A stretch of DNA of 64,000 nucleotides from NCBI GenBank assembly GCA_021850545.1, contig JAJZLU010000040.1, forward strand, positions 14,156 to 78,155. Direction: 5' to 3'. The first letter of the stretch is position 1; the number at the start of each line of letters is the position of its first letter. Source of the DNA: Thermoplasmata archaeon. GTDB taxonomy: Archaea; Thermoplasmatota; Thermoplasmata; Thermoplasmatales; Thermoplasmataceae. Below are positions 1 through 11,873 of the stretch, in pieces. The notes beneath the pieces are model-generated. The model was not told the DNA's origin. It was given only the letters and a program-made list of their open reading frames with translations, and did no database searches. The position numbers and the translations under genes are program-made.

Positions 1-25
1 AGTTCTTTGCAACGTTAAAGCGAAC

Positions 26-100
26 GGGCCCGTGGCCTAGTCTGGATAAGGCACCGTCCTTCTAAGTCGGTGATCGTGGGTCCGAATCCCACCGGGCCCG
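26..100 (+). tRNA. tRNA-Arg (anticodon TCT)
   Basis: A full cloverleaf can be folded. The 7-bp acceptor stem is GGGCCCG/CGGGCCC with discriminator G, the D-stem is GCCT/AGGC, the anticodon loop is CTTCTAA, and the T-arm is GTGGG-TCCGAAT-CCCAC. The anticodon TCT reads AGA codons. The anticodon stem has one U-U mismatch. No intron and no encoded CCA are seen. The 3' end of this gene is repeated at 4629-4648, so it appears to have served as the attachment site of the degraded element that follows it. Confidence 0.95.
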
Positions 101-101
101 T
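82..101 (+). repeat. attL-like direct repeat (tRNA-Arg 3' end)
   Basis: The 20 bases CCGAATCCCACCGGGCCCGT at the end of the tRNA (T-arm 3' half, acceptor, discriminator and one flanking base) recur at 4629-4648 in the same orientation with one mismatch. Tyrosine recombinases of archaeal elements commonly use tRNA 3' ends as att sites, and integrase relics lie just inside both copies. I infer that this is the left boundary of an integrated element. Confidence 0.75.
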
Positions 102-154
102 TCCCTATAGGGTACGGAAAATATATTAATTGTATCTATATCGTTTTTGATATC

Positions 155-484
155 ATGGGAAAAGAGAAGTACCCCGAACTCCGAAGGAGCAAGGAGGTAA
201 TGCGCTGGTATCAGGATGTTTGTCGGGGTTCCGCGACAACAGGGGATGTTTATCTGAGGCGGTTGGGATTCTTCTGCCAAAAGGTTGGCAAGGATCCCTT
301 GCAGTTAACCAAAATGAAGGATATGCCACTTGTTAATCTCATCACAGACTTTGTCACTCAAATGGAGAGGGCTAACAAGGCATGTGGTTATATCAACAGC
401 AATGTCAAGGCCATAAAGTCATGGCAAAAGCGTTCAATGAAAGCGTTGAAGCATCGGAGCCAACCTCAATTTTCTCTATATTGA
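155..484 (+). pseudogene. tyrosine recombinase (integrase) N-terminal relic, left end
   Basis: The reading frame encodes about 90 residues resembling the SAM-like core-binding N-terminal domain of archaeal tyrosine recombinases, including VYLRRLGFFCQ and a later VKAIKSW. It then loses the family pattern: the expected continuation after KSW (AFNESVEAS) lies in the next frame, so a frameshift is likely near position 423. No catalytic domain (R...HxxR...Y) follows. It starts 54 nt beyond the tRNA-Arg end, where an element's integrase is expected. The same N-terminal motifs appear in a second, inverted relic at 4240-4571. It is non-functional as an integrase. Assignment as an integrase is by motif pattern only. 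Confidence 0.6.
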
Positions 485-707
485 TGTTCTCGGGAATGTC
501 CACTTCAAAATCTGCCTTGAACGGTTTCCCGCATATGGGACGTCTGACTATTCTTGGTAATATTCGCGGTATTTCTCTCGGCGAGGTGATACCGTAAACG
601 GTGACATCATATCCACATCTGGCCACGTACTTATGGGTCATATTGTCGTACGGGCATTCATACTTGAGCTCTTTCGACCACTCCTTTGTGGCCGTTTTCT
701 TGTCCAT
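405..707 (-). CDS. hypothetical small protein, possible zinc binding
   Basis: This ORF of 100 codons starts at ATG and has a TATA-like CTTAAG stretch about 30 nt upstream. The N-terminal two thirds contains scattered cysteines (ECPYD, ARCGYD, RPICGKPF) that could form a metal site, though not a clean zinc ribbon. The last 20-25 residues are antisense to the integrase relic, so the native C-terminus was probably lost when the two sequences were joined. I do not recognise the family. It lies inside the degraded tRNA-Arg element and may itself be a remnant. Confidence 0.35.
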   Translation of the reverse strand: MDKKTATKEWSKELKYECPYDNMTHKYVARCGYDVTVYGITSPREIPRILPRIVRRPICGKPFKADFEVDIPENINIEKIEVGSDASTLSLNAFAMTLWP

Positions 708-888
708 AATTAAACACTAATTGTCCGCACTTAAGCCGACCCCCTTACTTCTCATATCCTTCCAATCAACTTCATTCCTCTACTCAGCGAAAAACAGGTT
801 ACGATCCTGGCAAAGTATCTCCAGATCTTCACAGGAACTGCAATTAACATTAACTGACAATCAGATTAGAATAGTTTTTAAAAACAAA

Positions 889-899
889 TTTTTATAAAG
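889..899 (+). promoter_or_regulatory. TATA box of the zinc-ribbon/LURP-one gene
   Basis: TTTTTATAAAG is centred about 26 nt upstream of the ATG at 920 and no ribosome binding site lies between them. This suggests a leaderless transcript and favours ATG 920 over the TTG at 905 used by the ORF track. Confidence 0.55.
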
Positions 900-919
900 A
901 TAAATTGTTTATTCCCTTT

Positions 920-1576
920 ATGAATTGCCCAACGTGCATGAAACCGGTTTCTGAAAGCGACGTCTTCTGCCAGAACTGTGGCACAAGACTGAAAGATGAC
1001 ACACAGACACAAACACAGGCATCTGGAGTCCAGGGTACAACAACGGACCTGAACTCCCTGAATCAGCTGCTCCTGACACATTCCAAGTTAGGTGCATTAA
1101 TGAATTTCACATTTTCCGACACCAGTGGAAACGTTGTTGCCACGACACAGGGACAGTTGAGCATACCCATAAAGTATACGGTTTTAGATTCGGTAAATCA
1201 ACCATTATTCGGAATAGGAGGACAGAGAGGAAGAGGGCTCATGTTCTACCACACCGTGGTTGATCAACAGGGCAATACGCTCGCGACAATAAAGCCGAAG
1301 TCAGGGTTTGGAAAGAAATACACGGTAGAGATAGGCGGAATGGAGCCACTCCTGTTGAAGAGTGACCTCAAGGGGCTCAATTATGAACTCCTCCTCAATG
1401 ATCAGTCGCCGGTTGCCCAGGCACACAGGCACATGATGGCAATGGTTACGGAGAGGACGGAAATAGAGATCACCGAAGGAACCCATGTAGATCGCAGGAT
1501 AGCGCTTGCATCCATGCTTCTTGTAGACGCATCCACCATCGGTTCGGGATTCATGTTCCAGTCATCAGGGATATGA
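920..1576 (+). CDS. zinc-ribbon protein with LURP-one/scramblase-like domain
   Basis: The 218-residue product opens with a zinc-ribbon pair (Cys3, Cys6, Cys17, Cys20, the last two in FCQNCG). A polar linker of about 25 residues follows, then a beta-rich domain of about 150 residues. Its pattern of short repeats (DTSGNVVATTQG, GLMFYHTVVDQQGN, TEIEITEG...LLVDAS) fits the LURP-one-related/tubby-like scramblase fold (PF04525). Family members are linked to phospholipid or membrane association, but no archaeal function is established. No membrane segment is evident. The start at ATG 920 is set by the TATA box. It is the only gene in the tRNA-Arg element that looks fully intact. Domain assignment is by eye. 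Confidence 0.65.
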   Translation: MNCPTCMKPVSESDVFCQNCGTRLKDDTQTQTQASGVQGTTTDLNSLNQLLLTHSKLGALMNFTFSDTSGNVVATTQGQLSIPIKYTVLDSVNQPLFGIGGQRGRGLMFYHTVVDQQGNTLATIKPKSGFGKKYTVEIGGMEPLLLKSDLKGLNYELLLNDQSPVAQAHRHMMAMVTERTEIEITEGTHVDRRIALASMLLVDASTIGSGFMFQSSGI

Positions 1577-1595
1577 AATTACTTTAATGAATCCC

Positions 1596-1617
1596 AAATC
1601 CCTCATCTGAGGGATTT
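1596..1617. terminator. perfect 10-bp inverted repeat with 2-nt loop
   Basis: AAATCCCTCA and TGAGGGATTT are separated by only TC, between the stop of the LURP-one-like gene and the ATG at 1621. It could end the upstream transcript. Because it sits directly before the RraA remnant's start codon, it could equally be an operator. No T-tract follows on the plus strand. Confidence 0.35.
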
Positions 1618-2293
1618 CAGATGGAAAATACGGATTTCAGCCAGGAGAATCTTGCCTCGAGCGAGGTTTCAGATGCACTGTTCAAGATGGGCATAAAAGG
1701 GGCAATTGATGGAATACATGAGACATACAGATCCCGGCCGGTAGCGGGACGGGCTCTTCCAGTACACCTCTGCAGGAAGCCTTCCTGGAGCCCAAGCAGT
1801 AAGACGAATTCACCTCCACCAACACCAAGGAAGGCTGCACCCGTAGAACTCCCAAACCGTCTCCTTGTCAATGATAGTATGAGAGTCAGAGTGGCAAATC
1901 CAGCTAACAGTTCGTAAAGGTTGGGCATATCCTGATTGAACCAGGTAGAGTAAGCGAAAACAAATGAAACGAGGAACATAAGGCCGTCATTCTAGTGGCA
2001 GGGGACCTGTGTGTCCTTAGATTGACAATTGTACTGGAAAGCATGAACATGGGGAGCAAGACATATGAGAATGCCAGGAAGGTCACAGCAAAAACCGCTA
2101 AACTCATATAGTTTCTTTGAAAAAGCATCTGGTGAAAAGTGTTGAATCGCAATGGGGTGGGGCCTGAAAATAAGCCGTTAGGAAATACGGTGTAGTAGAT
2201 GAAGATAATTACAAGTGAAAAAAAGTATGAATCTACTGTCAGTGCTAAACTGATGTAGCTCAGCGAAATCTCTGCCTTACGAGGTCTTGCCAT
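1617..2293 (-). pseudogene. integral membrane protein, frameshifted and 3' truncated
   Basis: Two minus-strand frames together make one membrane protein. The first (from ATG 2293) has hydrophobic segments near residues 12-35 and 60-85. The second, beginning near 1979, continues with VSFVFAYSTWF and LLAGFATLTLIL. They lie in different frames, so a one-base frameshift near 1980-1990 is needed to join them. The 3' end runs into RraA-like sequence on the opposite strand near 1780, so the C-terminus is lost. It starts 9 nt after the kinase gene ends, so the two were probably co-transcribed. I do not recognise the family. Confidence 0.5.
1621..1770 (+). pseudogene. RraA-like family protein, N-terminal fragment
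   Basis: The first 50 or so codons match the N-terminus of the RraA/4-hydroxy-4-methyl-2-oxoglutarate aldolase-like family (EVSDALFKMGIKGAIDGI, then a VAGRA turn). Homology stops abruptly near 1765-1790. The rest of the open frame, to 1917, is simply antisense to a broken membrane-protein gene, giving a low-complexity Ser/Pro-rich tail. Intact relatives are around 200 residues, so only about a quarter remains. The gene is disabled by a deletion or recombination joint. Family call is moderately confident. Confidence 0.5.
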
Positions 2294-2302
2294 AGTTTAA
2301 AA

Positions 2303-3979
2303 TTACCTCTCCAGGCACGAAATGAAACTTTCAATTTTCGAATTAACCTGTGTGGGATCAAGATTGAAGTGAACGACGGCTGTAAGGTTTGGCAATAGCT
2401 CATTTTCGAGGTGCTTAATGCAGTTGGGTTTCTTTTCCTTCAAATACTCGAAATTGTCTGTAAGCCAACCCAGAACAGTGTTGTAGTTCTTGGAACGGTA
2501 CAGTGTTCTCAGGTTATCAACAGCATACGACAGTGATCTTGTTACCTGGGGGTCTACCTTTCCTGTAGACCCATCAGTGCTTCCGCCCCGGGGTTCCAAG
2601 CGGTTGTTGTCTCCTGCTGCAACTTTGATGCTTATATTTATGTCCTGCTTTTCCTTTTCCTTATTACCATCTGATATCATCTTTCTTGCCTCTTCACCGG
2701 CAGTATCTTGGTTCCCCTCATACACTTCCCTGTCAGGATGTTCATCCAGTGTTGGAGGTACAATTTCCGGAACTATATCTTCAGTTGAAGCAACTTTGGA
2801 ACTGAATCCAAGCACCTTGCTGATTTCATTTCGCAGTTCACTTGCGCTGGAGTATCTGTCATTAGGATGTTTTTTCAGGCACTTGAGTGCAATAAGATCT
2901 ATGTCTTTCAATGAAGAAACGTGAGATGAAGGTGGGTTGGGTTCCTGTGTTAAAAGCCCTTCCACAAATCTGTCAGGTGAATCGTAATCAAGATTGAGGG
3001 GCAATTTTCCGGTTAGCGTCACATACATTATGGCCTCCATCTGATAGAGGTCTGTAGCTTTTGAAGGTGGGCCGAAATCGGTAACTACCTGTCCAGGGGC
3101 CGAATATGCAAGGGTGTAGCCAAGATTTCGGTCATTTTCAGACCTTCTGTCAGAATAGAATTTTGAAGGCCCCTATTCACTTAGCTTGGGAATTCCACTG
3201 CCCGTCAAGAGTATATTTGCAGGCTTAAGGTCTAGGTGGATAATATTCTGTTTGTGTGCAAACTCCAGGCCTTCGAGCAACCGGTAGATCAGGAACAATG
3301 CCTCTCTCTTTTTCAGCGGGAAGTTCTTGTCAGAGAGAGTTCCACCATCGATATACTCCATCTCCAGATATAGAACGGAATCTGGCTTTGGTTAAATGTT
3401 GGCATCACGGAATTCTACAATATTTGTATGACGTAGATACTTCCAAGTCACTACCTCATTGAGAAAAGAATGTCCTTCATATTCATTTTCATTATCTATG
3501 ATCTTAATCACAGACTTCTGCCCAGATTTGTTGTTAATGACACGGTAAACCTTCCTAAATCCGACTTCTCCAATTTTTCCGTCATAGGAATATTTTTCCC
3601 TCAGTGATGTTGGGAACCCAAAGTCCCTTTCTTTGGTATTCACAGGATTCCATACTATAGTTGTGACATTAGGGGTGATTTCCTTCTTGTATTTGTTCGC
3701 CAGGTCTATATAATTTTGGCTGTACGGTTCTCCCTTAACTCTCCTGCAAATGTCTAGGGTTCCTAATTTGTAAAGAGTGCTAACCAGCAACTGGACCCTA
3801 CCTTTGTAATCAAGATATGAACTCATGAGGTCCTTCAGATTGTTTGAAATTTCTCTTACGGTTGTTTCCTGCAGTGGATCCTTTCTAGCCTATTTCCTTA
3901 ATTCCCTTACATCCTGCCCAATAAGGTATATTAGGTTAGTTTTCTCCTGATCAAATGCGATCTTAGGCCCAATTATCAC
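2303..3979 (-). pseudogene. Ser/Thr protein kinase gene with three in-frame stops
   Basis: One continuous frame of about 558 codons from GTG 3979 encodes a Hanks-type kinase. Visible are a glycine-loop region (GKIGEVGFRKVYRV), the Lys of subdomain II (VIKII), the catalytic loop HLDLKPANILL and the subdomain IX-XI regions, then a charged non-membrane C-terminal extension. Three stops interrupt it: TAG at 3890-3892, TAA at 3392-3394 and TAG at 3173-3175. No frameshift is needed to join the parts. The last stop falls in the DFG motif (seen as E-stop-G), and the glycine loop is degenerate, so even readthrough would give a doubtful kinase. A TATA-like stretch lies upstream of 3986. Its likely partner is the adjacent broken membrane gene. 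Confidence 0.8.
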
Positions 3980-4239
3980 CTGTCATTCATTAAAGAATAT
4001 ATAGAATTTAAATTTTGGTCTTGTTTTATATATTTTCATGAAACTATGTGCGTCACTAATTCTCAAGTATACGTTGGGTGATGAAAACGCTGCTTTAGCA
4101 ATAAATAATTAAACCATTGTAAAAAAGGATGCTCATTTTAGAATAAGCATATCATACGATGATGGATTGACTCAAATTAAGATATCCTGTTTTATGTAAC
4201 AGATTGAAAAATAACGAATTTTTATGCATCAGAGATTCA

Positions 4240-4571
4240 AGAATGCCCCAGTAAACTTCTTTATCACATGATTTTCCCTGGTACTTTAATCCCATTGAAA
4301 GCAAACCGTGATTTAATGGATTTGATAATTGAGCCTCTATAGCCTCCAGAGTGTCCCTTATGCTAATGAAGGGATGCATTGGCACCAGCATTTGCCAACT
4401 GCATTCAATTCAAATTCAGCAAGTCTATGGGATTTTCCAAGTGATTTTGCAGAACAAGCCAAGCCTTCTCAAATAGACCTGTCCGGTGGTAATTGAAACT
4501 CTGGAAACAATATCATACTAACACCTTATTTCTGGATTTCTCCATAAGTCCCCATATTTCTCTTTTGCCAT
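4240..4571 (-). pseudogene. tyrosine recombinase (integrase) N-terminal relic, right end
   Basis: Reading the minus strand from ATG 4571 gives a start like that of the left relic (AKEKYGDL versus GKEKYPEL), a premature stop, then TTGQVYLRRLGLFC in the same frame. After a frame change comes KSLGKSHRLAEFELNA, and after another, SIIKSIKSRFAFNGIKVPGK. Together these follow the order of an archaeal integrase core-binding domain, but in at least three frames with stops. No catalytic domain is seen. The relic faces inward from the right att-like repeat, starting 58 nt from it. The 79-residue ORF at 4152-4391 is an out-of-frame product of this relic. Confidence 0.6.
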
Positions 4572-4628
4572 GCTAGTCAATATTTATAATGCAGATGCGA
4601 TAATAAAGCTTTTCAAACGCTGTTATGC

Positions 4629-4648
4629 CCGAATCACACCGGGCCCGT
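4629..4648 (+). repeat. attR-like direct repeat of the tRNA-Arg 3' end
   Basis: CCGAATCACACCGGGCCCGT matches 19 of 20 bases of 82-101 in the same orientation. It is not part of a tRNA here: the preceding bases do not form a D-arm or anticodon arm. It matches tRNA-Arg(TCT) better than tRNA-Arg(TCG) at 11572. It is the expected right boundary of an element inserted at the tRNA-Arg(TCT) 3' end. Confidence 0.75.
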
Positions 4649-4925
4649 ATCAATTTTAACACTGGACAGTTTCATATTTATAATCAATGGATGAAAATTA
4701 GGAGGAAGGAGACAGAACTTCTAGTCAATCTTGTAGCTTCAGTTGTGAAGACATCCATCAAAGGTCTACCTTTCAAGACTCAGGAGTTGAAGTGACCTTG
4801 CTCTGGGGTTCTGTTGAACAAGCGATCTTCTTCTAACCGACAGGAGAAAAATTTAATATCATTTTTTTGACTAATTGTTAAGGAACAGAAATTTGGAACA
4901 TAAGATTTGGAATAGTATAAAGTGC
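4649..4925. other. intergenic sequence beyond the att-like repeat
   Basis: No convincing gene is present. A 34-codon frame from ATG 4691 to 4795 has a TATA-like stretch just upstream and an amphipathic charged start, but it resembles nothing I know and could be a fragment. The rest is AT-rich and probably holds the promoter of the small membrane ORF at 4926. Confidence 0.4.
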
Positions 4926-5126
4926 ATGAGCAAGCGGAAATTAGTTCTATTAACAGGCGCTATGCTTGCTGTACTATTCTTTGCACCCATATACTCTGCT
5001 GTTCTGCCATCAGCCGCATATGTAACATCCATAAATGGACTTGCCTCACTTTCATTCATTCTATCAAAACAGGGCTTTATCATAATGGGCACTCACTTAT
5101 ATTGGGGAGTCCCACCTTTTGCGTAA
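4926..5126 (+). CDS. hypothetical small membrane protein
   Basis: From ATG 4926 the frame gives 66 residues. A basic start (MSKRK) leads into a hydrophobic helix (residues 5-25), and a second hydrophobic stretch lies around 30-55. The ORF track begins 17 codons earlier at TTG 4875; I prefer the ATG because the helix then has the usual positively charged N-terminus. No family is recognised. It is isolated, just outside the right att-like repeat. It could be a real small membrane protein or chance. Confidence 0.35.
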   Translation: MSKRKLVLLTGAMLAVLFFAPIYSAVLPSAAYVTSINGLASLSFILSKQGFIIMGTHLYWGVPPFA

Positions 5127-5243
5127 ATCCATATTCTTTAAAATGACTTTTTACCTGCATTTATTCTGCAACTCCCGGCAATTATGTCCCTTAGGATACA
5201 AGTATATATTTTGTGACAAATTGAAATTTATAAGGGGAATGAG

Positions 5244-5840
5244 GTGACTGCTTATTCAGACGCTAGAATCTATGGTGGAATTGGTTCAATATTGGTTATT
5301 CTAACAGTTGCACCAACAATTGGGTGGGTTCTAGGAATTGCGGGTTTCGTCCTTTTACTTATGGCCATAGATCGGCTTTCGACAGAACTGGGTGACCGAC
5401 ATATATTCACCAACGCCATACTGTCAGTGGTTTTTGCAATCATCGCTGTGGCAGTGTCAGCATTTTTCGTGATTGCGTTAGTTTTGCATTACGTTGGTGT
5501 GAACTACCCATATGGTTTTCCGAATATGATGGGTCCATACCAGAACCTTGGGGCAGTAAACTGGTCTGCGGTGGTAATCACCTTAATCCCCGCCTTACTT
5601 GCAACTTGGGTCCTCCTGGTATTTTCTGGCTACTTCATACGGCTAAGCTATGGAGCTATATCTCAGAGGCTGAATATTCCACTGTTTGAAACAGGCGCTC
5701 TGTTCTACTTCATAGGCGCAATTACTGTGGTAATCATGATAGGGTTCCTGTTGCTCCTTGTTGCCCAGATAATTATTGCAATCGCCTTTTTCTCAATTCC
5801 TGACAACCTCGCAGCCAGAAAAGGTGCAAGCCAGACATGA
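5244..5840 (+). CDS. DUF996 family integral membrane protein
   Basis: The 198-residue product has about four to five hydrophobic helices and the archaeal DUF996 look: an N-terminal RIYGGIGSILVIL helix, a loop with DRLSTELGDRHIF, and a C-terminal helix ending in AFFSIPDNL. The function of DUF996 proteins is unknown. The start is GTG 5244, embedded in GAGGTG and preceded by AAGGGGAATGAG, which could act as a ribosome binding site. The ATG five bases upstream is out of frame. It is a single gene, convergent with the pilin at 5875. Confidence 0.65.
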   Translation: MTAYSDARIYGGIGSILVILTVAPTIGWVLGIAGFVLLLMAIDRLSTELGDRHIFTNAILSVVFAIIAVAVSAFFVIALVLHYVGVNYPYGFPNMMGPYQNLGAVNWSAVVITLIPALLATWVLLVFSGYFIRLSYGAISQRLNIPLFETGALFYFIGAITVVIMIGFLLLLVAQIIIAIAFFSIPDNLAARKGASQT

Positions 5841-11571: not shown

Positions 11572-11645
11572 GGGCCCGTGGGGTAGCTAGGATATCCTTA
11601 TGGCCTTCGAAGCCGGAGACCTGGGTTCGAATCCCAGCGGGCCCG
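11572..11645 (+). tRNA. tRNA-Arg (anticodon TCG)
   Basis: The acceptor stem GGGCCCG/CGGGCCC is identical to that of tRNA-Arg(TCT). The anticodon loop is CTTCGAA (anticodon TCG, codon CGA), and the T-arm is CTGGG-TTCGAAT-CCCAG. The D-stem GGGT/ATCC includes a G-U pair, and the outermost anticodon pair is mismatched. There is no intron. No integrase or repeated 3' end was found downstream, unlike at the other Arg tRNA. Confidence 0.93.
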
Positions 11646-11873
11646 TCCCAGAAATGGGTAATTTCTCTTTAAAAATGAGGAATAAATTGCCCATATTTTT
11701 GAAAGCAAGGCCCATTCTTTCTGGCAGGCAGTCTGGGCTATTTCAATTTATGTGCCATGTTCCTCGAAGTTTAGATTTTACTCCGGATTTTCTTGATCAC
11801 TGCGAATAATTATATGGGTGCCCCAGAAAAAATTGAATTCCCTTTAAATTCCTAATTACAGAAGGATGCCACT

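Follow-up and report, generated by a model that had tools for sequence, protein, structure and literature searches.

The window analysed here is a 64,000-nt stretch of an archaeal genome (G000) from the class Thermoplasmata, and its first base corresponds to C44:14156, directly after a 10-N scaffold gap (G000:C44:14146-14155). It opens with a tRNA-Arg(TCT) gene, followed by a 4.5-kb part that ends in a second copy of the tRNA 3' end; an intact element, E1, is found on the other side of the gap. The features, in window coordinates unless C44 is given, are as follows.

25..101, plus strand: tRNA-Arg(TCT), left boundary and target of all integrations (ARAGORN, flank comparison)
82..101, plus strand: att copy 1, the tRNA 3' end CCGAATCCCACCGGGCCCGT (direct reading)
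89..102, plus strand: 14-bp core CCACCGGGCCCGTT (attB), common to E1 attL (C44:4821-4834) and attR (C44:14113-14126)
158..430, plus strand: integrase relic A, N-terminal ~92 positions only (HMM model 3-94, iE 2.9e-25)
905..1576, plus strand: open 223-aa ORF, ATG at 920, zinc ribbon and LURP-one-related body (Pfam, distant homologues)
2303..4024, minus strand: Ser/Thr protein kinase pseudogene, three in-frame stops within the homologous part
4270..4571, minus strand: relic B of an integrase, covering residues ~1-112 split over two frames (HMM iE 2.3e-8 for 4425-4568)
4629..4648, plus strand: att copy 2 (attR) CCGAATCACACCGGGCCCGT, 19/20 identity to the tRNA 3' end
5244..5840, plus strand: 198-aa membrane protein, the nearest conserved chromosomal gene on the array's right side (tblastn synteny), adjoining the tRNA in the congener G004
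C44 4821-14126: element E1, intact, 9.29 kb, from tRNA-Arg(TCT) to CCACCGGGCCCGTT
C44 14056-12701, minus strand: E1 tyrosine integrase, 451 aa, intact, same family as the relics

The recurrence of the tRNA-Arg 3' end at 4629-4648 with one mismatch, first pointed out in an earlier note on this DNA, can be read directly, and the tRNA itself is found by ARAGORN. A search of the whole 1.73-Mb assembly with the 20-mer at 82-101, allowing up to two mismatches, gave only four matches: the two copies of tRNA-Arg(TCT), the site at 4629-4648, and the 3' end of a tRNA-Arg(TCG) at 11627-11646. The reversed pattern had no match in the assembly under the same conditions, which excludes a chance origin of the repeat. 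The tRNA-Arg(TCG) gene itself (11572-11645) carries no insertion in the window. A complete tRNA followed by a displaced 3' copy in the same orientation, 4.5 kb downstream, is the arrangement by which islands of 2-200 kb are recognised. A search for a third att copy inside 484-4270 gave none.

Has DNA been inserted at this tRNA gene? By tblastn synteny, gene order upstream of the tRNA and downstream of 5244 is conserved in relatives, and the congener G004 has an empty site: the neighbouring genes match on both sides, the repeat has no second copy, the stretch is free of Ns, and 186 bp separate the tRNA from the conserved gene, against 5142 bp in the window. The empty site therefore supports the insertion at tRNA-Arg that had been proposed.

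The claim that each repeat copy has the remnant of an integrase N-terminus next to it on the inner side was borne out by an HMM made from 52 long intact integrases of the family. The start codon of relic A is at 155, 53 bp past the end of the tRNA, and the gene is co-directional with it (DIR anatomy). Relic B is composed of 4425-4568 (minus strand), which corresponds to model positions 3-50, and of 4365-4270 in another frame, which corresponds to positions 73-104; about 57 bp separate its start codon from the nearer edge of att copy 2, and the core is inverted with respect to the gene (INV anatomy). Both relics point inward, both lack the catalytic part, and they share 54% identity over 48 aa. 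Each matches best to a subclade rich in INV integrases. There is thus no intact integrase ORF in the 4.5-kb part. The observation that nearly all genes between the repeats are broken applies to the integrases and to the kinase gene (4006-2303, minus strand); the 223-aa zinc-ribbon ORF is open.

For the most part the kinase pseudogene keeps to a single frame, and across 577 aa it shares 48% identity with an open gene of 555 aa found at another locus in G005. No relatives of the zinc-ribbon protein were detected in a scan of the genome contigs, and a class-wide search yielded four to five remote homologues from other families within the class. The LOR domain (PF04525) has no match in the window protein itself but is matched by two of the five aligned members (best E 2.1e-11), and by way of its homologues the LURP-one label given to this gene is probably right. 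A fold of the window protein predicted from one sequence was uninformative, with a mean pLDDT of 33. It had also been suggested that the gene may be under selection, as it is intact. At the stop rate of the neighbouring pseudogene (3 per 568 codons), 223 codons should carry about 1.2 stops, and the frame would stay intact by chance with P ~0.3. Intactness is therefore no evidence of selection, although selection on this gene is possible. Neither the zinc-ribbon gene nor the kinase has a link to known mobile elements.

What kind of integrase do the relics derive from? In the E1 integrase and nine relatives, the catalytic residues R150, K195, Y272xxR275, H302, and Y310 are invariant, giving the R-K-[HY]xxR-H-Y signature of tyrosine recombinases, and there is similarity to known members of this class: XerA (NF040815, E 1.2e-8; structure 5hxy, E 3.4e-5 by profile) and the phrog_1 integrase (E 3.5e-5). 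No Pfam domain was detected in the family integrase. Relatives are encoded at 197 loci, whose record titles name Thermoplasmata, Nitrososphaeria, Bathyarchaeota, Hadesarchaea, and Methanomassiliicoccales.

Both anatomies seen in the relics are found among intact members of the family, with similar start-codon spacing. A tRNA-derived core could be scored at 52 integrase starts. At 41 of these the tRNA 3' end faces the gene (DIR), usually as a complete tRNA and in most cases at 48-51 bp from the ATG; the other 11 have an inverted partial tRNA end (INV), its near edge 47-61 bp and its 3' terminus 68-79 bp before the ATG. In the shuffle null a core score of 10 was reached once in 440 and 11 never; weak calls (score 8-9), which lie inside this null, were left out of the final count of orientation switches. 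On the tree of 52 integrases, the 47 robust labels need five changes of orientation, and with all labels kept the well-supported branches still force at least five. We tentatively suggest, as a proposal somewhat less likely to hold than to fail, that the recombination site of this family accepts the tRNA 3' end either way round in much the same stretch, about -50 to -70 relative to the start codon, with some five switches, and that relics A and B and E1 are products of such freedom, possibly aided by the self-complementary CGGGCCCG in the core. This is the only part of the analysis that may be new; no statement of an either-orientation core was found in a limited literature on archaeal integrases and islands. 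If confirmed, it would make testable what fixes the direction of insertion in archaeal integrases that target tRNA genes.

One relic is DIR and the other INV, so the two ends of the 4.5 kb, left and right, most likely stem from different elements that have become joined, and a fusion of at least two elements is the most likely origin. The whole is probably best read as a repeatedly used attB at tRNA-Arg(TCT), where the 4.5 kb is the decayed fusion of an element A and an element B, and E1 arrived later. We infer the fusion, since no internal attR of element A survives. According to the earlier note, the 4.5 kb is a single element. This is unlikely because the anatomies of the two relics are opposite and each is found intact in other elements. 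Under such a reading there would have been a single integration of one element with an integrase at one end, and the second relic would be foreign or a captured fragment. It would account for a single pair of direct repeats and a single empty site, and it agrees with the placement of both relics in the same integrase subclade. However, both relics are real, mirrored, and similar in sequence, and each lies at the family-typical distance from its core, and the intact elements that could be delimited (E1 and one at G001:C70) hold one family integrase each. We therefore consider a single element improbable.

Under the favoured history of fusion, an INV-type element B would have integrated first, leaving the order tRNA, cargo, integrase reading away from attR, and the tRNA 3' copy at 4629-4648. 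A DIR-type element A would then have entered the same tRNA and placed an inward-reading integrase behind the tRNA and 53 bp. Point mutations and internal deletions may subsequently have removed the catalytic parts of both integrases, the attR of A, and the remaining genes of B, and the outcome would be a fused 4.5-kb scar that cannot excise itself. At a later time the intact 9.29-kb E1 would have entered this tRNA at the 14-bp core, in a fraction of the population. Each integration would be of the ordinary tyrosine-recombinase kind, which restores the tRNA.

As the 4.5-kb part has no integrase ORF and E1 has one of 451 aa, the former is called a decayed island and the latter an intact one. E1 consists of a tRNA and a displaced 3' fragment at 9.29 kb with an integrase. 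It encodes a primase-like protein with Prim-Pol and zinc-ribbon domains, an AbrB/MazE-like ORF (below the Pfam cut-off), and many small ORFs; a large ORF without a family match is presumably helicase-like, judging from its motif. Plasmid, phage, and viral collections contained no relatives of this ORF or of the integrase, and no attP sequence was found in viral contigs. The E1 integrase has INV anatomy. In integrases of the SSV type, att lies within the integrase gene and integration splits the gene. The locus resembles such suicidal systems in its tRNA target and in the N-terminal integrase fragments adjoining the tRNA. By contrast, att is here about 50-60 bp upstream of the start codon (for E1, the core is 50-70 bp upstream of the ATG), and the intact gene is unsplit. 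E1 is probably a live element, and its att junctions, all of which are readable, make it suited to excision tests. The proposal that loss of the recombinase fixed the old integration holds as far as the recombinase is decayed. It is incomplete, however: the same tRNA has an intact family integrase at a distance of about 0.1 kb, and the genome contains at least two more. These two open family integrases are at G000:C26:110319-111617 and G000:C30:1259-2533; the core is inverted in one, and the other follows a tRNA-Ala end.

The relationship between E1 and the window depends on the scaffold gap. A second copy of tRNA-Arg(TCT) is located at C44:4757-4833, 9.4 kb further left, and has a nearly identical upstream flank; the first 102 bases of the window are a copy of C44:4733-4834 apart from one mismatch. 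Window 85-121 recurs on the left of the gap, and the post-core sequence CCCTATAGGGTACGGAAAA at the right end of E1 is that which follows the window's own tRNA. The tRNA at 25-101 is probably the empty-site allele of E1, duplicated by scaffolding across the gap, and for this reason the integration is probably polymorphic. E1 seems to be present in only part of the population, and the simplest account would be that strains with and without E1 were scaffolded into one path. Could the window tRNA instead be a genuine second tRNA-Arg(TCT) gene, so that E1 and the scar are flanked by independent tRNAs? The copies do share a scaffold, and their 24-bp upstream flanks differ at a single base; a true local duplication of the tRNA is compatible with the gap, whose length is nominal. 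Against this, the repeats just described meet at a 10-N junction, and integration at a tRNA 3' end leaves the 5' part of the tRNA and its promoter unduplicated. Congeners with a high-identity match have one such tRNA copy each. Two independent genes therefore appear quite unlikely.

Relatives differ in what follows the tRNA. In G005 and G003 the site holds other cargo and no second att copy, and together with the empty site of G004 the comparison supports an insertion that would have occurred in the lineage of the window, at a site that is variable in general. That the interval is nothing but variable chromosome, with a repeat made by chance or gene conversion, might be argued from the unrelated, non-mobile-looking genes of these relatives, but is very hard to believe given a 19/20 match at the exact end of the tRNA and integrase relics at family-typical spacing at both ends. 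To the right of att copy 2 there are 0.6 kb (4649-5243) that no relative matches along the full stretch; this further part of the right end, not explained by the two elements, is possibly the scar of a still older event. A match of window 4630-4686 to G001:C57, a contig binned with G001, was discarded: 20 of its ~58 bp are tRNA, and the proteins flanking it on that contig resemble another genus (G016), so the contig was probably binned in error. Elsewhere in the order, family integrases or relics of other families of archaea lie directly 3' of tRNA-Arg-like genes (G039:C20:7297-7746, G043:C9:47634-48785, and G045:C21:6743-7368), which suggests a long-lived hotspot.

The locus is a well-preserved mobile-DNA hotspot of an ordinary kind: an uncultured, acid-loving Thermoplasmata archaeon carries what are most likely at least two old decayed elements in 4.5 kb of mostly broken genes. 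Islander catalogues tRNA-targeted islands and contains 125 tandem cases (PMC4383910). As in those, there is a complete tRNA, a displaced 3' fragment in the same orientation, an island between them, and several islands per tRNA; unlike those, the 4.5-kb part lacks an intact integrase and would not pass the integrase filter, and the inner element boundary is lost. An empty site in a relative, as seen in G004, lends support but is no filter of Islander. Integrated elements of Thaumarchaeota are likewise cryptic, with att at tRNA genes and tandem use of one site (PMC6563490), although the hosts are different and the present array is mostly decayed. In its account of target sites, a 2021 review lists tRNA-Arg(TCT) among the most used archaeal targets and describes a preference for tRNA 3' ends and tandem integration (PMC8371274). 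The non-suicidal tyrosine integrases that it treats share with the present family an attB at the tRNA 3' end, the absence of a Pfam domain, and occurrence in several archaeal phyla. By contrast, its target inventory does not name Thermoplasmata, and its sections on these integrases do not discuss the orientation of the core relative to the gene. The layered record of one tRNA gene used repeatedly comes from a group absent from those named there. The review also describes fam30-08, an integrase family that is Pfam-less and multi-phylum (PMC8371274). Perhaps the present family is fam30-08, as lack of a Pfam domain and wide archaeal spread agree; membership as defined by Badel et al. calls for an identity of 30% or more to listed members across 60% of the protein.

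An E1-like element is present in G001 (L104 6548-14291), and its integrase is 90% identical to that of E1. The two elements have the same type of integrase, but different tRNA targets and different replication genes. They also have in common small proteins (L005 10264-10497 in E1, L104 10920-11171 in G001) with a weak resemblance to Hfq/Sm-like proteins, below the cut-off for Pfam Hfq (E 0.062 and 0.013). The G001 element is bounded by a complete tRNA-Arg(TCG) and an attR of inverted anatomy, CCAGCGGGCCCGT, and this target tRNA is the orthologue of the tRNA-Arg(TCG) that is empty in the window.
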